Shown one piece after another: positions 8,427 to 49,719 of a stretch of 64,000 nt of DNA. Origin of the DNA: an uncultured Acetobacterium sp. (GTDB taxonomy: Bacteria > Bacillota > Clostridia > Eubacteriales > Eubacteriaceae). Location: positions 3,064,736-3,128,735 of the forward strand of contig NZ_OY760905.1 in assembly GCF_963664135.1 (NCBI RefSeq), written 5' to 3'. The notes beneath the pieces were generated by a model. It made no database searches. It was not told where the DNA came from and saw nothing but the letters and a program-made list of their open reading frames with translations. The number at the start of each line of letters is the position of its first letter. Within the stretch, counting starts at the first letter, position 1. The position numbers and the translations under genes were made by a program.

Positions 8427-8502
8427 GATCTCGTAGCTCAGCTGGCAGAGCACTACCTTGACATGGTAGGGGTCGATGGTTCAAGTCCATTCGGGATCAC
8501 CA
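8427..8502 (+). tRNA. tRNA-Val(GAC)
   Basis: Cloverleaf drawn by hand: acceptor GATCTCG (8427-8433) pairs with CGGGATC (8492-8498), the D arm is GCTC...GAGC, the anticodon stem CTACC/GGTAG encloses loop TTGACAT with GAC at 8460-8462, and the T arm is GATGG/CCATT around TTCAAGT. Discriminator A and CCA are encoded. It is a single tRNA, not in a cluster. Confidence 0.93.
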
Positions 8503-8515
8503 TTTATTAGATAAC

Positions 8516-8556
8516 AAAGCTATTTGCAGAATTAATGCAAATAGCTTTTATTTGTT
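8516..8556 (+). terminator. tRNA-Val terminator
   Basis: Thirteen-bp perfect stem (8516-8528 with 8536-8548, 7-nt loop) ending in a T-rich stretch, 14 bp after the tRNA. Confidence 0.85.
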
Positions 8557-8610
8557 TTGACTAAAAATAGAACGATAGAAATGACATTTAGTTCATTTTT
8601 TCGCATCCAA

Positions 8611-12291: not shown

Positions 12292-12372
12292 CGATGGTTT
12301 GCAACTGGCTGTCATATATAACTACTTAGACCCTTTAGCTTTGCGTCCTTACCTTTCGATAAGTTTGCCAAA
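12292..12372 (-). ncRNA. Cyclic-di-GMP-I (GEMM-I) riboswitch
   Basis: Read on the minus strand, the conserved parts appear in order: GGCAAAC, stem CTTATC/GGTAAG closed by a GAAA tetraloop, GACGCAAAGC, GGGTCTAAG, and GACAGCCAGTTGC. This is the class I c-di-GMP aptamer pattern (GNRA-capped P1b, central GACGCAAAGCC, 3' GCCxGxUUGC). It lies about 100 bp upstream of the PepSY gene with a terminator between, so transcriptional control is likely. The competing pairing suggests an OFF switch (inference). Confidence 0.85.
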
Positions 12373-12717
12373 TATTTAATTAACATCATAATAATACAAT
12401 TTTCTCCGGCTGTCAAACTAAATATGAATAACTTAATAGTTAAATGTTGCGAAGTATCGGAAAACAAAAAATTAGTCTTTGACGGCTGAAAAAATGTTTT
12501 ATATCAGCAATAATCTTTGTAATTTAGTAGTTGCTCGCATATAATACCATTATGAGATGATGACAATTGAATGGATCATGATTGGTTTAGAGTTGCTCTC
12601 TGATAAAATACATGAGAAAGATAAAGCATGGGATTATGGTTCAGGAATCAGTTAATTATTCCAGCTATTTGGATTATGTTAATAAATTGATTGCTTAAAA
12701 AGAAATGGAGATAATTG

Positions 12718-20334: not shown

Positions 20335-20445
20335 TAGTCATTAGAAAATCCAATTAAATATTTCTGGATTTCTATAAGTTTATGATATTGATTTGAAATT
20401 TTATTCAGCTAATCAAAAACGCTTTGTAGAAAAGAAGAATCCTGG

Positions 20446-20475
20446 AATCCGCTGGGTTAACACTCAGCGGATTTT
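20446..20475 (+). terminator. Orphan terminator of a lost adh copy
   Basis: AATCCGCTG/CAGCGGATT with TTTTTGC. The counterpart at 21914 reads AATCCACTG/CAGTGGATT, a compensatory G-C to A-T change, so the hairpin has been conserved by selection. Confidence 0.8.
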
Positions 20476-20661
20476 TGCTTTGTTGGTCTAAAGGTAGGCA
20501 AAAAAATGCAGGTTTAACGATTGTCATTAGAAAAATATAATTTATTTCGTCGGTAAGATAAAAATTAGCAATGTCAGATTAGGCAGAAAAGATAAAAATG
20601 AACATTATATTATAATTATGCTATAAATTTTTGCTCTTTTCCTTAAATTTCACTTAATCTA

Positions 20662-20690
20662 TTGAAAGATGAGTAAAATATGGATATAAT
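20662..20690 (+). promoter_or_regulatory. Promoter of the alcohol dehydrogenase gene
   Basis: TTGAAA (20662-20667), 17-bp spacer, TATAAT (20685-20690), about 44 bp before the start codon. It is duplicated ahead of the aldehyde oxidoreductase gene. Confidence 0.8.
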
Positions 20691-20733
20691 GAAGACGGTT
20701 ACAAATAAATAAAATTCATGGAGGTATTTTAGT

Positions 20734-21897
20734 ATGGCAATTGCAGATCAAGTATTTGGTTTTTTTATGCCCGTAGTAAATTTGATGGGACCGGGTTCAG
20801 TAAACGAAGTGGGCGTGCAGGCAAAGGCTCTCGGTTTAAAAAAGGCTTTGATAGTAACAGACGCTGGCATGGAAAAAATGGGAATCGCAGATCAGATCAA
20901 AGAAATCATTGAAGAAGCTGGGCTCAAAGTAGTCATTTTTGCTGGTGCGCAACCAAATCCAACGGATATTAATGTTCATGACGGTCTGGCGATATTTAAG
21001 GAAAATAAATGTGATCTAATCGTTTCTTTAGGTGGCGGATCTTCCCATGACTGCGCCAAAGGGATTGGCATGGTAGCCGGGAATGGTGGTCATATTCGGG
21101 ATTTTGAAGGTGTCAATAAAAGCAAAAAAGCGATGAAACCTCTGATTGCGATCAATACCACAGCGGGAACGGCCAGTGAGATGACACGCTTTTGTATAAT
21201 CACCAACACGGATACTCATGTTAAAATGGCGATTGTTGATTGGCGATGTACACCAACTATATCAGTCAATGATCCGGTGCTGATGATGGGGATGCCTCCG
21301 GCATTAACAGCGGCAACTGGCATGGATGCGCTGACGCATTCAGTGGAAGCTTATATGTCAACTATTGCGACGCCGGTAACGGATTCAGCTGCCCTCATGT
21401 CAATTAAACTGATCGGTGAAAACTTGCGTCAGGCGGTTGCCAACGGACAGAATTTTGAAGCAAGAAACAATATGGCTTATGCCCAGTTCCTGGGTGGTAT
21501 GGCATTTAATAATGCGAGTTTAGGATTTGTGCATGGAATGGCGCATCAACTGGGTGGCTTTTACGACCTTCCCCATGGCGTCTGTAATGCCATCTTGCTC
21601 CCACATGTCCAACGATTTAATTTAAATAGCAATCCCAAACGTCTGGCAGATATTGCGGTTGCTTTGGGTGAAAACATTGATGGTCTTTCAGTCAGAGATG
21701 CTGCTGAAAAAGGATTGGATGCAATTATTCAACTGTCCAGAGATATTGACATTCCATCCGGCTTGGCAGAACTTGGGGCAAAAGAAGAAGATTTCAAACT
21801 GATGGCAGAAAACGCAATGAAGGATGCCTGCAGTGCGACGAATCCAAGGCAGGCTAAACTGGAAGATGTTATTCAGATATTCAAAAACGCTTTGTAG
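20734..21897 (+). CDS. adh: Iron-containing alcohol dehydrogenase
   Basis: 387-residue group III (iron-activated) NAD(P)-dependent alcohol dehydrogenase. It interconverts primary alcohols and aldehydes. Motifs: VSLGGGSSHDCAKGIG nucleotide-binding loop (~94), NTTAGTASEMTRFCII (~138), and the metal ligands in GMDALTHSVEAYMS (~196) and HGMAHQLGGFYDLPHGVCNA (~262-281). GGAGG precedes ATG 20734. Its own promoter and terminator make it monocistronic, but the next gene (tungsten aldehyde oxidoreductase) has a duplicated copy of the same promoter, implying co-regulation of acid-aldehyde-alcohol interconversion. Confidence 0.95.
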   Translation: MAIADQVFGFFMPVVNLMGPGSVNEVGVQAKALGLKKALIVTDAGMEKMGIADQIKEIIEEAGLKVVIFAGAQPNPTDINVHDGLAIFKENKCDLIVSLGGGSSHDCAKGIGMVAGNGGHIRDFEGVNKSKKAMKPLIAINTTAGTASEMTRFCIITNTDTHVKMAIVDWRCTPTISVNDPVLMMGMPPALTAATGMDALTHSVEAYMSTIATPVTDSAALMSIKLIGENLRQAVANGQNFEARNNMAYAQFLGGMAFNNASLGFVHGMAHQLGGFYDLPHGVCNAILLPHVQRFNLNSNPKRLADIAVALGENIDGLSVRDAAEKGLDAIIQLSRDIDIPSGLAELGAKEEDFKLMAENAMKDACSATNPRQAKLEDVIQIFKNAL

Positions 21898-22149: not shown

Positions 22150-22178
22150 TTGAAAGATGTGCAAAATTTGGATATAAT
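22150..22178 (+). promoter_or_regulatory. Promoter of the aldehyde oxidoreductase gene
   Basis: TTGAAA (22150-22155), 17-bp spacer, TATAAT (22173-22178); same arrangement and near-identical surroundings as the adh promoter. Confidence 0.8.
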
Positions 22179-22219
22179 GATTGCGGTTACAAATAAATAA
22201 AATTTAGGAGGCATACGAA

Positions 22220-24019
22220 ATGTTTGGTTACATGGGAAAAATATTACGTATTAATTTGACGACCGGTGAAATTGGCACTGAAGATCTTGATTTTGAGTTG
22301 GCCAAGAAATATATCGGGGGACGTGGTTTAGGGACAAAGCTTTATATGGATGAGGTTGATCCAAAGGTTGATCCGTTTGCTGCAGAAAATAAAATTGTCT
22401 TTATCAATGGTCCGTTGTCTGGAACAGCGACTCCTACCGGTGGTCGGTATATGGTCGTTACCAAATCACCATTGACTGGTTGTATTGCGTCGTCAAACTC
22501 CGGCGGCGAATGGGGCGCTTACCTGAAATATGCTGGTTATGATGCCATCATTATTGAAGGCAAAGCCAGTCTGCCGGTCTATGTCAGCATCGATGAAGAA
22601 AAGGTCGAAATTTTACCGGCACTTGATCTGTGGGGCAAAATGGTTTCCGAAACCAGTGACATGTTAAAAGAAAAACAGCCGGGAGCCAAGGTTTTAACGA
22701 TTGGTCCAGCTGGTGAAAAATTGTCGCAGATGGCTGCCATCATGAATGAAAAAGACCGTGCTGCTGGTCGTTCCGGCGTGGGTGCCGTGATGGGTTCGAA
22801 AAACCTCAAAGCCATTACGGTTAAAGGCAATCTCAAACCGGAAATCGCCAATCCGGACGGCTTAAAAGCGGTTACCAAAGAATGTCGAACCCTGCTAAAA
22901 GAAAATGGTGTCACCGGTGGTGGTCTGCCGACATACGGTACCGCAGTGCTGGTTAATATTATTAATGAACATGGCGTTTACCCGACCAATAACTTCCAGG
23001 GTGGTCAGGATCCCGATGCTGAAGCCGTCAGCGGCGAAACCCTGACCGAAAAATACCTGATCAAACGGAATCCCTGTCATCATTGCCCGATTGGCTGCGG
23101 CCGCTGGGTAAAAAGCGAACACAGTCCTGATGGTATCGGCGGACCCGAATATGAAACCCTCTGGGTATTTGCCGGCGATTTAGGCATCGATGACATGGAA
23201 GTAGTAATTGACGCCAACTACTGGTGTAATGAACTGGGGATCGATACCATTTCAGCCGGTGCTACCTTAGCAGCAGCGATGGAACTCTATCAACGGGGTT
23301 ATATCACCGACGAAATGCTCGATGACGATGTGATCCTGAAGTTCGGTAATGCCGATTCAGTGGTTCACTGGCTCAAGAAAATGGGTAACCGGGAAGGCTT
23401 TGGCGATTTACTGGCTCGCGGTTCTTACCGACTGGCTGATTTCTTCGGGGTGCCAGAATACTCCATGTCCGTTAAAAAACAGGATCTGCCAGCCTATGAC
23501 CCCCGTGGAATTCAGGGAATGGGTCTGCAATATGCAACCTCCAACCGGGGCGGCTGTCATGTCCGGGGTTACCTGATCTCACCCGAGATTCTGGGTTTGC
23601 CAGAAAAATTGGATCGCTTTGAATTAGCCGGAAAACCAACCTGGGCGAAAATCTTCCAGGATCTGACGGCGGTTATTGACTCCACCGGTTTATGTTTGTT
23701 TACCTCATTTGCGTTAGGCGCCCAACAATATGCCGACATGTTAAATGAAGTATTAGGCACAAAATGGTCAGCTGATGATGTACTGTTAGCTGGCGAACGG
23801 ATCTGGAATCTGGAAAAACTCTTTAACTTAGAAGCCGGTATTTCATCGGATGAAGATACCCTGCCGCCGCGTTTCTTAGAAGAAGAAATGCCGGAAGGAC
23901 CAACCAAAGGTTGGGTTCATAAACTGGATGAATTGCTGCCACTGTACTATGCAGAACGTGGCTGGGACGAAGATGGGATTCCCACCGAAGAACGGCTGGA
24001 AAAATTAGGTTTATTATAA
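22220..24019 (+). CDS. aor: Tungsten aldehyde:ferredoxin oxidoreductase
   Basis: 599 residues, the AOR family length. It reversibly oxidises aldehydes to acids with ferredoxin, using a tungsten bis-pterin and one [4Fe-4S] cluster. N-terminal MFGYMGKILRINLTTGEIG and KKYIGGRGLGTKL are typical. The cluster motif CHHCPIGCGRW (near residue 290) gives C-x2-C-x3-C, with a distal cysteine probable in STGLCLFTSF (near 490). GPLSGTATPTGGRY and NRGGCHVRGYL are further signatures. AGGAGG precedes ATG 22220. Next come a radical-SAM maturase, a sigma-54 activator and MoeA proteins, matching tungsten-enzyme biogenesis. Confidence 0.95.
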   Translation: MFGYMGKILRINLTTGEIGTEDLDFELAKKYIGGRGLGTKLYMDEVDPKVDPFAAENKIVFINGPLSGTATPTGGRYMVVTKSPLTGCIASSNSGGEWGAYLKYAGYDAIIIEGKASLPVYVSIDEEKVEILPALDLWGKMVSETSDMLKEKQPGAKVLTIGPAGEKLSQMAAIMNEKDRAAGRSGVGAVMGSKNLKAITVKGNLKPEIANPDGLKAVTKECRTLLKENGVTGGGLPTYGTAVLVNIINEHGVYPTNNFQGGQDPDAEAVSGETLTEKYLIKRNPCHHCPIGCGRWVKSEHSPDGIGGPEYETLWVFAGDLGIDDMEVVIDANYWCNELGIDTISAGATLAAAMELYQRGYITDEMLDDDVILKFGNADSVVHWLKKMGNREGFGDLLARGSYRLADFFGVPEYSMSVKKQDLPAYDPRGIQGMGLQYATSNRGGCHVRGYLISPEILGLPEKLDRFELAGKPTWAKIFQDLTAVIDSTGLCLFTSFALGAQQYADMLNEVLGTKWSADDVLLAGERIWNLEKLFNLEAGISSDEDTLPPRFLEEEMPEGPTKGWVHKLDELLPLYYAERGWDEDGIPTEERLEKLGLL

Positions 24020-24029
24020 AATAAATGTT

Positions 24030-24058
24030 GGGGATGATCTCAGATCGTCCCCTTATTT
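24030..24058 (+). terminator. aor terminator
   Basis: GGGGATGATC/GATCGTCCCC hairpin with a 3-nt loop followed by TTATTT, 10 bp after the stop. Confidence 0.85.
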
Positions 24059-24093
24059 CAGTTGCGGAAAGCTGAACGACAAAAAATAAAACC

Positions 24094-24123
24094 AGAGCCG
24101 ATTGGTTAGTTCGGCTCTCATTT
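24094..24123. terminator. Second hairpin, bidirectional, downstream of aor
   Basis: AGAGCCGA/TCGGCTCT with a 9-nt loop. Plus reads CATTTTATT afterwards; minus reads GGTTTTATTTTTT. It would block minus-strand transcription from entering aor. Confidence 0.7.
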
Positions 24124-24192
24124 TATTGAAATTTAATAAAAAATATTAATAAAGAAAATTAATAATACAAATCCCTGGTTAATAAATATCCT

Positions 24193-24213
24193 GGTTACAA
24201 ATAAATAAAATTC
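24193..24213 (+). repeat. Copy 3 of a leader-derived short repeat
   Basis: TTACAAATAAATAAAATTC preceded by GG, identical to the leader segments of adh (20697) and aor (22185) but here with no promoter or gene behind it. Confidence 0.75.
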
Positions 24214-24232
24214 AGGGATGCATGGGAAAAAT

Positions 24233-24263
24233 AAAAAGACTACTCCAAATGGAATGGCCTTTA
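24233..24263 (-). terminator. Terminator of the minus-strand Tuco-type RNA
   Basis: Minus-strand AGGCCATTCC/GGAGTAGTCT (nine of ten positions pair, ATTT loop) followed by TTTTTATTTTT. Confidence 0.7.
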
Positions 24264-24310
24264 GGTTTGCAATAAAAATGCAAAACGACGAGGGTGATGC
24301 CCTCTGCTAA

Positions 24311-24409
24311 GCCCCTTTTCCACAATGGGAGACATAATCGTTTCCAATTATACCCTACCGGTTTAAGTTCATAGTCTTGATGACCTTAGAAACATTAAAC
24401 TTCGGAGTT
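24311..24409 (-). ncRNA. Orphan Moco/Tuco-like riboswitch RNA (copy A)
   Basis: Minus-strand RNA with ACUCCGAAG at its 5' end and GAAAAGGGGC at its 3' end (P1: CUCC/GGGG), a P2 stem GUUUAA/UUAAAC capped near ACUAUGAA, and a hairpin UAUAAU/AUUAUG with the conserved loop UGGAAACG. The same architecture occurs at 27.8, 39.0 and 40.5 kb. A minus-strand promoter and a terminator bracket it. No minus-strand gene lies downstream; the transcript points at the 3' end of aor. Class assignment rests on family-like motifs and context recalled from the literature, not a covariance search. Confidence 0.65.
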
Positions 24410-24415
24410 TTTATC

Positions 24416-24444
24416 ATTATATAATATTATCCGATAAAATGCAA
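24416..24444 (-). promoter_or_regulatory. Promoter of Tuco-type RNA copy A
   Basis: Minus strand TTGCAT (24444-24439), exactly 17 bp, TATAAT (24421-24416), about 7 bp before the RNA start. Confidence 0.75.
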
Positions 24445-24560
24445 ATAAAAACAGACAAGTTTAACAATTTATGTGGGTCAGCATCGGTATAAAAAAAATT
24501 CAGACGACTGGCGGTGGAATCTGTGGCAGGGGTTGCTGTTAAATAAAAAGCGAGGAAAAA

Positions 24561-25642: not shown

Positions 25643-27571
25643 ATGAATAAAAATAATTATCAAAAATTGATCAGAGAATCAAAGGAGCGGTGCCTCCAAT
25701 ACGGCATCACGGAAAATCAGGTCTACAGCAAGAAAATGATCGATACCTCCGAGCTGCAGCAGAAATTTACCGAAAATCGGGATCTCATCTTGACCGCCTC
25801 TCCTTATATGGAACACCTGATGAGTATTGTCAGGGGCAATAATTTTTTTGTCTTGTTAACAGACAAAGATGGCTGCATTCTCAACGCCATGGGTGATGAA
25901 AAAATATTATCAGAAGCCTTTGATTTAAAAATGGTAGCCGGTGCATATATGAATGAAGAATCCATTGGCACCAACGCCATGTCATTGGTCATTAAATCCA
26001 AGGAAGCGGTTCAATTGTCTGGAACCGACCATTTCATCGTAGCCTATCATCGGTGGACCTGCTCCGGGGCACCGATTAAAGATCCCAACGGAAATCTTAT
26101 TGGCGCCCTGGATCTAACTGGCTATTCCGATTCGGTTCATCCCCATACCTTGGGTATGGTCATCGCCGCCTCCAACGCAATCGAAGAAATGCTCAAAGTT
26201 CAGGAATATAATCGGCTGCAGAATATGACCGATCGGCACATAAAAACCATTTTTAATGCCATGCCAGTGGCGATTCTCACCACCGATATGGAGGGGGAAA
26301 TAAAAATTTATAATCAAAAAGCCCTGGAGCTGGTGGGAAATAAATATAAGCAATTGGATTCTAAAAATCTCGGCGAAATTATTGATGAATGGGAGAGTAT
26401 CAAGGAGGGTCTTCACTCGGAAAGAAATGTCAGTCGGATCGTCAATATCAAGTCTCTGCGAAACCGCTTTCCCTGTCAGATGACCGCCAGTCCCATTTAT
26501 AACCCGCAAGATGATAGTATCGAGATTGTTTTTGTATTGAAAGAAGATCTATCAAACAAAGCTGATAAAACCATTCAGCCCTATTACACTTTTGACAAAA
26601 TCATTGGAAAAGATAAACATTTTGTCAGTACCATTGAATATGCCAAAAAAATTGCCAACAATCGGTCAACGATTCTGATCCTGGGAGAGAGTGGTTGTGG
26701 CAAGGAAGTTTTTGCCCAGGCCATTCACAATTACAGCAAACGAATGGATGAACCATTTGTAGCCCTTAACTGTGGGGCGATCCCCACTCAATTAATTGAG
26801 TCGGAACTGTTTGGTTATGAAGCAGGGGCTTATACCGGCGCCAAAAAAGGTGGTAACATCGGCAAATTTGAGTTGGCTAATAATGGCACGATCATGCTGG
26901 ATGAAATCGGCGAAATGCCGATGGAGCTGCAAACCCGATTATTAAGGGTGCTGCAGGAAAATGTGATCACCAAAATCGGCAGCCAGAAGACCATCCCCAT
27001 TGATGTGCGTATTATCGCTGCGACGAATAAGGATCTGAAAAAAGAAGTGGAACTGGGACGGTTCCGAAAAGACTTGTTTTATCGTCTGAATGTATTGCCG
27101 CTCTACCTGCCATCTTTGTGGGAAAGAAAAAGTGACATCGAGATCTTATTTAGCTATTTCATGAAAAATCTGTCAGCTAAATATGAGAAAAAAGAGTTTC
27201 AGATTAGCGAAGAAGAAATGCTGATTTTAAAAAACTACAATTGGCCGGGTAATGTCAGAGAACTGGAAAATATTGTTGAGCTGATGATCAATACAGAGTC
27301 ATTTCCGACTAAGTATTTTATCGAGAACAGCAGCCATCAAGTGCCAAATCCCTGGCAGGAAATGCATTCAGAAGCTTTTTATGAAAGTCTGGAAACAGTC
27401 GATAAGTCCAAATTGGATATGAATTATATTGAAAAAGAGCATATCAAACGGGTTTTGAAATTATATGAAGGAAACATCACCAAAGCGGCCAATGCCTTAG
27501 GCATTCAGAGAAATACCTTGTACAACAAAATTAATAAGTATCAAATTGAAAGTGAAAAACAATTAGTCTGA
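25643..27571 (+). CDS. Sigma-54-dependent activator (GAF-PAS-AAA-Fis)
   Basis: 642 residues: N-terminal GAF-like sensor (~60-190; NEESIGTNAMSLVI and HHFIVAYHRW region, AcoR type), a PAS domain (~200-300; IFNAMPVAILTTDMEGEIKI), the AAA+ domain with Walker A GESGCGKE (~350), GAYTGA loop (~396, a variant of GAFTGA that contacts sigma-54) and LDEIGEMP, and a Fis-type HTH (GNITKAANALGIQRNTLYNKI). It should activate sigma-54 promoters, perhaps for aldehyde/alcohol or tungsten genes nearby. I found no clean -24/-12 site within the window's adh/aor leaders. The signal is unknown. Confidence 0.93.
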   Translation: MNKNNYQKLIRESKERCLQYGITENQVYSKKMIDTSELQQKFTENRDLILTASPYMEHLMSIVRGNNFFVLLTDKDGCILNAMGDEKILSEAFDLKMVAGAYMNEESIGTNAMSLVIKSKEAVQLSGTDHFIVAYHRWTCSGAPIKDPNGNLIGALDLTGYSDSVHPHTLGMVIAASNAIEEMLKVQEYNRLQNMTDRHIKTIFNAMPVAILTTDMEGEIKIYNQKALELVGNKYKQLDSKNLGEIIDEWESIKEGLHSERNVSRIVNIKSLRNRFPCQMTASPIYNPQDDSIEIVFVLKEDLSNKADKTIQPYYTFDKIIGKDKHFVSTIEYAKKIANNRSTILILGESGCGKEVFAQAIHNYSKRMDEPFVALNCGAIPTQLIESELFGYEAGAYTGAKKGGNIGKFELANNGTIMLDEIGEMPMELQTRLLRVLQENVITKIGSQKTIPIDVRIIAATNKDLKKEVELGRFRKDLFYRLNVLPLYLPSLWERKSDIEILFSYFMKNLSAKYEKKEFQISEEEMLILKNYNWPGNVRELENIVELMINTESFPTKYFIENSSHQVPNPWQEMHSEAFYESLETVDKSKLDMNYIEKEHIKRVLKLYEGNITKAANALGIQRNTLYNKINKYQIESEKQLV

Positions 27572-27599
27572 AAGAAGGTGTCTCAATTTATATTATTTC

Positions 27600-27620
27600 G
27601 GTTGCAAATAAATAAAATTC
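27600..27620 (+). repeat. Copy 4 of the leader-derived short repeat
   Basis: TTGCAAATAAATAAAATTC preceded by GG, one base different from copy 3, followed by CAGGGA as in copy 3. Lies 28 bp after the activator gene, again with no gene behind it. Confidence 0.75.
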
Positions 27621-27634
27621 AGGGACGTTAAAGG

Positions 27635-27670
27635 AAAAAAGACCATTCCTCAACCGGGAGTGGTCTTTTT
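27635..27670. terminator. Bidirectional terminator (activator gene / Tuco RNA copy B)
   Basis: AAAAGACCA-TTCC/GGGAGTGGTCTTTT; U tract on both strands. Ends the activator mRNA on plus and RNA copy B on minus. Confidence 0.85.
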
Positions 27671-27726
27671 GCAAGTATATTTGTGAAAATTATATATACA
27701 AAATAACACGGGCAAAGTCTTGTTAA

Positions 27727-27823
27727 GCCTCTTTTTCACTATGGGAGAGATGATTTGTTTCCGATCATACTCTACGGGTTTAAGATCATAGTGAAATAAC
27801 TTAGATAGATTAAACTTTGGAGT
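27727..27823 (-). ncRNA. Orphan Moco/Tuco-like riboswitch RNA (copy B)
   Basis: Minus-strand RNA homologous to copy A: ACUCCAAAG at the 5' side, P2 GUUUAA/UUAAAC with ACUAUGAU at the tip, hairpin AGAG-AUGAU/AUCAU-CUCU with loop CGGAAACAA, then GUGAAAAAGAGGC. P1 pairing is weaker here (CUC/GAG). It has its own promoter upstream and a terminator about 60 nt downstream. No minus-strand gene follows; the only nearby gene in that direction is the 3' end of the sigma-54 activator, antisense. Confidence 0.62.
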
Positions 27824-27829
27824 TTTAAC

Positions 27830-39114: not shown

Positions 39115-39320
39115 GTTTTGAAGGTTTGCTTTTTATGATAAAAAAATTGATGCGCATCGATTTTTTCAAGAACATGCGAAAAATGAAGTAGTACAAAAAA
39201 TTATATTGAGGTTTGTTGATCATCGGGATGGACGTGGTTGCATTCACACTTTTTCTGAGTTACAATATCCATAAATTGATAAAATAATAATGAGCTATGA
39301 AAAAATTAAAGAGGTAAATG

Positions 39321-40364
39321 ATGAGTAGAGAAAAAGGTCGGTCATTAACACAAATGGTACGAAACGGCGGTTGCGCGGCAAAGTTGGGACCTGGTGTTCT
39401 GTCGGATGTGCTGGGGAGCTTAACACCAACAGCAGACAAAAACCTGCTGATTGGAATGGAAAACTCCGATGATGCCGCCGCCTATGCGATTAATGAAAAG
39501 CAAATTCTACTGCAAACCCTGGACTTCTTTACGCCGGTTGTGGATGATCCGTATCTTTTTGGTCAGATAGCCGCCACCAATTCATTAAGCGATATCTATG
39601 CAATGGGTGGGAAACCCCTGATAGCCTTAAATATTGTCTGCTTTCCAGTTTGTGAAGATCCCCGAATTTTGGGAGAAATATTAAGAGGCGGGATGGATAA
39701 AATTAAGGAAGCAGGTGCCTTATTAGTTGGCGGTCACACCATTGATGACAAGGAGCCCAAATATGGACTTTCAGTATCCGGGTTAGTCGAGCCAGGTAAA
39801 CTGCGGGGAAATTGTCACGCAAAAGCTGGGGATATTCTAATTCTGACAAAACCGATTGGGTTGGGAATTATTAATTCAGCCGTTCGAGCAGGTGTTGCAT
39901 CGGAAGAATCAAGTCGAATTGCGGTTGAAACCATGCGAACACTCAATAAAAGGGCCTGTGAAATCATGGCGAATTACGATGTCCATGGATGTACCGATAT
40001 TACTGGCTTTGGACTCGGTGGGCATACCATGGAGATGGCAAAAGCCAGTCGTGTTTCCATCAGTTTATACTACTCACAGCTGCCGATTATCCCAGAAGCC
40101 GAAAAGTTTGCCGATATGGGGATTGTTCCCTCAGCCACCTATCATAATCGGGAACACTGTAGCGGAAGTTACACCTCGGAATTGCCGGTTTTAGGTGAAG
40201 ATCTTGTCTTTGATCCACAGACATCAGGGGGATTATTAATTTCAATAAGTCCCGAGCAGGGTGAAGAGCTATATCAGGAGCTGATCGAAAGCCTGGGGAG
40301 TTATGTCAGAATCGTTGGGAAAATAGAGGGAAAAAGGGACTTTGATCTGTACCTGGAAAAATAG
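39321..40364 (+). CDS. selD: Selenide, water dikinase
   Basis: 347 residues. Makes selenophosphate from selenide and ATP, the selenium donor for SelA. The catalytic motif near residue 17 reads GGCAAK, with cysteine at the position that is selenocysteine in some species. Downstream are the AIR-synthase-like motifs NSLSDIYAMGGKPLIALNI, VGGHTIDDKEPKYGLSVSG, DITGFGLGGH and DPQTSGGLLI. ATG 39321 is preferred over 39318 given GAGG at 39311-39314. Lies alone between the tup leader and the moeA-selAB operon. Confidence 0.95.
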   Translation: MSREKGRSLTQMVRNGGCAAKLGPGVLSDVLGSLTPTADKNLLIGMENSDDAAAYAINEKQILLQTLDFFTPVVDDPYLFGQIAATNSLSDIYAMGGKPLIALNIVCFPVCEDPRILGEILRGGMDKIKEAGALLVGGHTIDDKEPKYGLSVSGLVEPGKLRGNCHAKAGDILILTKPIGLGIINSAVRAGVASEESSRIAVETMRTLNKRACEIMANYDVHGCTDITGFGLGGHTMEMAKASRVSISLYYSQLPIIPEAEKFADMGIVPSATYHNREHCSGSYTSELPVLGEDLVFDPQTSGGLLISISPEQGEELYQELIESLGSYVRIVGKIEGKRDFDLYLEK

Positions 40365-40434: not shown

Positions 40435-40449
40435 TTTGTCAAACAAAAT

Positions 40450-40562
40450 GAGGTCTCCGAGCAAAAGTATCTAAGAATAAAGTTTATGATACTGCGCCAA
40501 AGCGTTAGAGCTTTCGGGTTGTACTGGAAACGGGATAGCCTTCTGTTCATGAAAAGGAGCAA
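40450..40562 (+). ncRNA. Moco-like riboswitch with extra hairpin (copy D)
   Basis: Plus-strand RNA: CUCCGAGC at 40455, stem AGUAUC/GAUACU with UUUAUGAU at its tip, an additional hairpin AAAGC/GCUUU, a stem GGUUGUAC/GGAUAGCC carrying loop UGGAAACG, then AUGAAAAGGAGC closing P1 (CUCC/GGAG). It shares YCCRA, UAUGRU, GGAAACG and GAAAAGG elements with copies A-C but has one more hairpin, as expected for the molybdenum-cofactor form of the class. It heads an operon starting with moeA. Confidence is limited because no covariance model was run. Confidence 0.7.
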
Positions 40563-40591
40563 ACATAGCACGAGTGTAAATATGTATTAGG

Positions 40592-49622: not shown

Positions 49623-49719
49623 GGGAGTAGATGGGTGCTGGTGTGCCCTCTGGTCTTCAAAACCAGTAAGAGTAGTGAATAACTGCTTAGGTGGGTTCGA
49701 TTCCCACATATTCCCGCCA
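49623..49719 (+). tRNA. selC: tRNA-Sec (UCA)
   Basis: 97 nt with an extended acceptor (GGGAGUA pairs with UAUUCCC; eighth position mismatched), anticodon stem CTGGT/ACCAG around CTTCAAA with TCA at 49657-49659, a long variable arm (TAAG..TAGT/ACTG..CTTA) and T arm GTGGG/CCCAC around TTCGATT. Encoded GCCA end. It decodes UGA and is required with selA, selB and selD for FdhF2. Confidence 0.95.

Follow-up and report, generated by a model that had tools for sequence, protein, structure and literature searches.

A Moco/Tuco-type RNA antisense to aor in Acetobacterium is predicted to gate a seed complementary to the aor and adh leaders

What could an RNA of the Moco/Tuco riboswitch class do when no gene follows it? 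The question is raised by a locus of an uncultured Acetobacterium sp. whose genome is a single contig of 4.08 Mb and from which a stretch of 64,000 nucleotides, called the window here, was analyzed. The Rfam covariance model RF01055 finds three Moco-type RNAs in the window. The RNA at 40443-40575 (+) precedes a moeA and that at 39056-38940 (-) precedes tupA, the usual position of the class in the 5′ UTR of a sense gene, whereas the third, at 24418-24297 (-), has no such gene. The longest minus-strand ORF inside this orphan RNA, or between it and aor, has 37 aa, so that a missed sense gene was rejected; the next minus-strand ORFs beyond the RNA lie opposite aor. A plus-strand aptamer serving as the leader of the radical SAM gene was also rejected, since Rfam gives no match on the plus strand and since the radical SAM gene is mostly elsewhere in other genomes. 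Other RNA matches in the window are a c-di-GMP-I riboswitch at 12297-12379 (-), a tRNA-Sec at 49623-49715 (+), with selD at 39318-40364, and an HPnc0260 match at 8464-8595 (-), which overlaps, on the opposite strand, the tRNA at 8427-8499 and is unlikely to be a genuine antisense RNA.

A preliminary description of the locus had proposed a TTGCAT-17-TATAAT promoter, a Tuco-type RNA domain and an intrinsic terminator, all on the minus strand with no gene following, and each of these elements was recovered (Table 1). A script recovered the 17-base spacing between a TTGC(A/G)-like -35 box and a TATAAT-like -10 box for 20 of the 21 related RNAs. By its score (E = 4.2e-11 for the window) the orphan aptamer is a member of RF01055, with cofactor binding putative. 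The P3 positions form a gap in the family alignment, as in the P3-less subtype that Regulski 2008 linked to the tungsten cofactor (PMC2408646), and the 5′ strand of P1 corresponds to 24408-24400 (-). Terminator 1 was read directly from the sequence, our pattern scan having omitted it because of a different loop-and-tail rule; its stem is conserved with pair changes across 21 aligned copies, one pair occurring as A-U, G-U or G-C and another changing from C-G to U-A. The second hairpin, previously noted near 24094 as bidirectional, is real and reads as a terminator of the minus strand; terminator-like hairpins lie 28-106 nt past the seed, defined below, in 16/16 loci examined.

Table 1. Positions of the elements discussed, numbered from the first base of the window
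Feature	Position	Strand	Basis
adh promoter, TTGAAA-17-TATAAT	20662..20690	+	
adh 5′ leader, second predicted target	20697..20733	+	
adh, iron-containing alcohol dehydrogenase	20734..21897	+	Pfam Fe-ADH
aor promoter, TTGAAA-17-TATAAT	22150..22178	+	
aor 5′ leader, main predicted target, predicted +1 at 22185	22185..22219	+	
aor, aldehyde ferredoxin oxidoreductase (AOR; W-enzyme)	22220..24019	+	Pfam AFOR_N + AFOR_C
Terminator 2 of the predicted read-through RNA; hairpin also facing aor	24080..24127	.	sequence
Predicted seed-holding hairpin (AUCCCUG/CAGGGAU stem)	24171..24219	-	single-sequence tail folds
Putative antisense seed, complement of the first 24 aor leader bases (one U-G pair) and of the adh leader	24193..24216	-	
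Terminator 1, putative expression platform separating aptamer from seed	24227..24262	-	sequence
Moco/Tuco-type aptamer RF01055, P3-less	24297..24418	-	57.3 bits vs cut-off 36
sRNA promoter, TTGCAT (24444-24439) - 17 - TATAAT (24421-24416)	24416..24444	-	sequence and pattern scan
Copy c, third degenerate RNA, between a sigma-54 activator gene and moeA	27560..27825	-	69% DNA match

A DNA search of 19 genomes of the genus with 24020-24560 gave two kinds of match: strong ones over 24193-24451 behind aor, and short ones of ~25 bases directly before aor. In most of the genomes DNA resembling the RNA and its tail lies behind aor in the same orientation, which suggests that the orphan RNA is more than a chance similarity. 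The short matches point to a segment that the preliminary description overlooked, beyond terminator 1, which we call the seed. On the plus strand, 24193-24216 reads GGTTACAAATAAATAAAATTCAGG, and the aor leader at 22185 reads GGTTACAAATAAATAAAATTTAGGAGG, so that the minus-strand RNA is complementary to aor from its predicted +1 into the Shine-Dalgarno sequence. At both aor and adh the match begins 7 bases past TATAAT, that is, at the predicted +1 and outside the promoter. Since the seed starts 10 bases beyond the U-run of terminator 1, it would be present only in read-through RNA. Within the window the 20-base match GGTTACAAATAAATAAAATT was found only in the adh leader, the aor leader, the orphan RNA and, with one mismatch, copy c; with up to 3 mismatches allowed, this 20-base core gave four matches against 0.03 expected. 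When 50 start codons picked in the window were ranked by pairing energy with the seed, aor came first (-37.6) and adh second (-36.8), the next reaching -25.0.

As to the gene order around the targets, adh with an aor-like upstream region of 300 bases (20434-21897) sits between an ATPase gene and aor, while in G009, a genome of the same species, and in G018 aor directly follows the ATPase gene. As read from these arrangements, adh with its leader is a strain-level insertion that carried the leader along. The genome studied here has two aor genes, aor1 and aor2 (99% identical), and both of them and adh carry the leader; its RNA copies lie behind aor1, behind aor2 and before moeA. The last of these, copy c, is below the Rfam cut-off (its G018 counterpart scores 52 bits), has the seed complement at 27600-27625, and is changed in P1 and in the seed (GCAACC). 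At aor loci of other genomes of the genus a moaD-like gene, ending in GG, was seen between aor2 and the RNA (e.g., locus L172, 5178-5411 (+)); in the window, aor1 and its RNA are too close together for such a gene.

The arrangement was then compared across the genus. Orthologues of aor (20 genes, 86-100% identity) were found in 16 of the 19 genomes, the next best proteins being below 50%. The leader, behind a TATAAT-like box, is present before 18 of the 20 (for G006 the upstream part displayed for this check was short), and 17 of those 18 genes are followed by an RNA whose seed is intact. At the remaining leader-bearing locus, in G007, the seed is shortened and degenerate and there is no Rfam match. 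The two leaderless genes are second copies, in G013 and G016, with no seed behind either. The three genomes that have no aor orthologue (G008, G014 and G017) also have no intact RNA of the orphan kind; in G014 a fragment with the promoter and the 5′ part of the aptamer persists despite the loss of aor, and this fragment is a true relic. Fisher tests, which ignore shared ancestry, gave p values of 0.004 for genomes and 0.016 for genes. Fifty-nine RF01055 matches were also sorted by ORF; in this crude sorting, same-strand ORF labels fell on 2 of the 17 aor-linked RNAs (G000:4004685 and G006:C136, ORFs of 96 and 104 aa), the ORF at G000:4004685 lying opposite moaD.

A core pattern, searched with at most 2 mismatches, occurs at 40 places in the 19 genomes, and the reversed control pattern at 2. 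Sorted by hand from their positions, 17 of the 40 places are aor leaders and 19 are RNA tails, one is an adh leader and three are of other kinds; the leader and the aor-side RNA of G010 are missing from them because of an extra base. The one extra place that was checked of the three (G004:C9) has no promoter or start codon nearby. Wherever a leader and an RNA share a contig, their matches are on the same strand, which means that the RNA is antisense to the leader.

The leaders and seeds also vary in parallel. In G011 and G012 both the leader and the seed contain AAATAGATT, and their seeds favor their own leaders (-36.1 and -35.3, vs -22 to -32 with the other leaders tested). In G010 the leader and the aor-side seed each contain one additional T; a second RNA copy in this genome, on contig C102, carries the leader's C at position 20 and pairs with the leader at -36.7 kcal/mol, compared with -21.2 for the aor-side copy. 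In G001 a leader G stands opposite a seed U, and a U-G pair at the start of the Shine-Dalgarno sequence is tolerated in most genomes. Departures from the parallel occur as well: there is one A-C mismatch in G003, and a single mismatch to the leader in copy c of G000 and likewise of G009. Over 17 own pairs the energy averaged -36.7 kcal/mol, against -11.7 for 3400 shuffled leaders (lowest, -27.8), and only the aor-side copy of G010 fell inside the range of this control. Conserved complementarity to a ribosome-binding region, as expected of a base-pairing sRNA, is found in the 17 aor-linked copies, the G010 aor-side one being weak. Leader and seed appear to have changed together in some genomes, through changes that are few and in part a single shared event (G011 and G012), and the predicted pairing between them is well supported.

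To look at how the seed might be controlled, 21 RNA copies were aligned (17 aor-linked, 3 copies c and an extra one from G010). The RNAalifold consensus contains 46 pairs, 9 of them with changes on both sides, and covers P2, P4-like parts and terminator 1; P1 and the seed hairpin are absent from it. It pairs GUGGAAAAGGGG, at the 3′ end of the aptamer, with the seed region (A2 columns 96-106 and 223-235), a helix that could mask the seed or be an artefact. When the tails were folded singly, GUAACC, which is complementary to nucleotides 1-6 of the mRNA, lay in or at the apical loop of the seed-holding hairpin in most copies. Two helices are kept across copies as possible competitors of terminator 1: ACUCC of P1 with GGAGU of the terminator's 3′ arm, complementary in at least 13 of 17 sequences, and the G-U-rich AAGGGGCU:AGUCUUUU. 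Neither beats the terminator in most sequences, and a clean antiterminator was rejected on these grounds. Of the 21 sequences, 19 have terminator 1 in their minimum-energy fold. The ACUCC:GGAGU pairing could be imposed on 15 of the 21 and gave folds 0.4 to 15.7 kcal/mol worse. For the window copy these alternatives have almost the same energy, and the fragment 24420-24230 folds without terminator 1. The sense Moco RNAs of the genus, compared by eye, have no antiterminator common to their expression platforms. The energies do not show the ligand direction of the switch. That the ligand would turn read-through off is suggested by the ACUCC:GGAGU complementarity, by the need of AOR for the cofactor and by the E. 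coli moaA RNA, the sole member of the class with experiments, which represses with ligand (PMC2408646).

Taken together, we consider it likely that the locus is a gene for a riboswitch-gated antisense sRNA, whose seed, transcribed by read-through when cofactor is missing, would block translation of aor and adh. Both the expression of this sRNA and its action on the targets are predictions. RNA polymerase would start at ~24409 and transcribe the aptamer. If tungsten (or molybdenum) cofactor binds to it, P1 would form and transcription would stop at terminator 1, ~24227, giving a short RNA that lacks the seed; with no cofactor, polymerase would read into the seed and on to terminator 2, near 24090, and the product would be ~320 nt long. 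By pairing with nucleotides 1-24 of aor mRNA, a stretch that takes in the beginning of the Shine-Dalgarno sequence, and with adh mRNA in the same manner, the seed would presumably block translation, so that AOR would be made only when cofactor is available. Action in trans is to be expected, since the seed matches a leader ~2 kb away and not the adjacent 3′ end, and the RNA copies beside aor1, aor2 and moeA would serve the same targets. A broader version, which we favor only slightly over its negation, is a stand-alone RNA gene in at most three copies per genome, in which the tungsten-cofactor aptamer gates a trans-acting seed. This seed would recognize target mRNAs all the way from nucleotide 1 to the ribosome-binding site, and any gene acquiring the leader (aor1, aor2 and adh) would join the cofactor-gated regulon.

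The ligand could also act with the opposite polarity, letting polymerase pass, so that the antisense RNA would repress aor as feedback when cofactor is plentiful. Terminator 1 as the default fold would suit a switch that needs ligand to open, and 12 loci in other genera have a Moco-type RNA in cis before aor, which might have either polarity; the E. coli RNA, however, is off with ligand, the P1 strand is complementary to the terminator arm in most copies, and a cofactor-dependent enzyme would be silenced while its cofactor is present. We regard this polarity as unlikely. It is quite improbable that the shared 20-26 bases work as DNA, with no RNA pairing, as an operator through which some regulator controls aor, adh and the RNA gene. 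The element does sit at the transcription start, where repressors bind, and co-changing sites would fit an operator too, but the orientation is always antisense on shared contigs, the copy in the RNA gene would be a poor site, ~190 bases from the promoter and behind the terminator, and the match takes in the start of the Shine-Dalgarno sequence with its tolerated U-G pair.

The preliminary description had offered three options, among them a free RNA that binds cofactor and a riboswitch-gated antisense RNA to aor, running toward its 3′ end. The antisense option was right in kind, but the conserved match is to the 5′ leader and Shine-Dalgarno sequence of aor, and to adh, instead of the 3′ end. 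Read-through into the 3′ end of aor, acting by polymerase collision or a 3′ duplex as proposed for ubiG of C. acetobutylicum (PMC9943018), would agree with a convergent RNA behind aor and with the layout described for Moco RNAs in the same survey. Against it, a predicted terminator lies ahead of aor, both in the window and at the 16/16 loci examined, and would keep the read-through RNA from overlapping its target gene; ~400 bases separate aor and seed in most genomes, with moaD between them in one translated locus; and the leader match is left unexplained. We find this reading very hard to sustain. The other earlier suggestion, a riboswitch left as a relic after gene loss, describes the G014 fragment, and copies c and the G007 copy are degenerate, yet the 17 aor-linked copies have retained their promoter spacing, aptamer, terminator and seed. 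The check for an adjacent gene in related genomes found the same orphan layout genus-wide, which speaks against a recently deleted target gene, and we give the relic almost no credence.

The antisense arrangement was also sought outside the genus, among the best 80 AOR loci. Of the 64 that belong to other genera, 20 have a Moco-type RNA. It precedes aor in 17 of them, in cis at 12 and on the minus strand at 5, and lies behind aor on the plus strand in the other 3. None of the 64 has an antisense Moco-type RNA behind aor (for 2 of them fewer than 500 bases were available there), and within these best 80 loci the antisense form looks specific to Acetobacterium. The cis RNAs are at loci L197, L198, L200-L202, L208, L209, L212, L218, L220, L224 and L259; several of them have GGAUUUGG downstream of P1 and CCAAAUUU immediately upstream of the Shine-Dalgarno sequence, a pair that perhaps forms a translational switch. 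In L205, L207, L210, L213 and L214 (Izemoplasma/Mycoplasmatota) the RNA is on the minus strand before aor and points away from it. Within the genus, another orphan-looking Moco RNA (G012 C1:2612924; L014 1501-1621 (-)) was rejected as such because an ORF of ~35 codons with a ribosome-binding site follows it; it has no match of more than 10 bases to its surroundings.

How does the orphan RNA relate to known systems? It resembles the Moco/Tuco riboswitches in its aptamer, which is above the family cut-off and of the P3-less subtype, and differs from them in that its predicted output is an antisense RNA. Two riboswitch-controlled antisense RNAs are reported as studied (PMC9943018). In C. acetobutylicum a SAM riboswitch behind ubiG-mccB-mccA makes antisense RNA when the ligand is missing (PMC9943018), and in Listeria the B12 riboswitch of AspocR also makes it without ligand, acting in trans, probably on translation (PMC8079631). 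The orphan RNA is similar in lying behind its target and being transcribed against it. However, the ubiG and AspocR RNAs overlap their target genes (AspocR, 1,400 nt), while the orphan RNA is predicted to end before aor and carries a short seed that matches a 5′ leader ~2 kb away. SreA and SreB, SAM riboswitch RNAs of Listeria, pair in trans with the prfA 5′ UTR and block translation (PMC8079631); SreA is described there as the terminated product of a sense riboswitch, whereas here the read-through product would act, and there is no sense gene.

The survey of Serrano-Gutierrez and Merino 2023 counted 24 MOCO RNAs in antisense position, with Mo/W cofactor genes among their targets; in its accessible parts the models are collision, duplex formation and supercoiling at convergent genes, with no leader-matching seed (PMC9943018). 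Moco RNAs appear in the transcriptomes of A. bakii and E. limosum, and the accessible parts of those papers do not mention the seed arrangement (PMC6239172, PMC5651825). The accessible part of the open PMC literature contains no report of the orphan RNA, although table S3 of PMC9943018 may include the locus. Measured against these sources, as far as they are accessible, a Moco-class RNA behind and against a gene is known, as are riboswitch-controlled antisense RNAs; the leader-directed seed, its occurrence in several copies, and the Moco/Tuco cofactor class for a riboswitch-gated antisense RNA appear to be new.

AOR is central to alcohol production from acids in acetogens. A tungsten-cofactor gate on AOR translation would, if true, bear on gas fermentation. 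With the antisense sRNA reading the orphan riboswitch gains a testable job: a cofactor sensor, detached from an mRNA of its own, would regulate in trans through a target leader that can be exchanged. A cheap search rule is suggested as well: scanning past the terminators of orphan riboswitches for matches to the leaders of cofactor-dependent genes may reveal what such RNAs act on.
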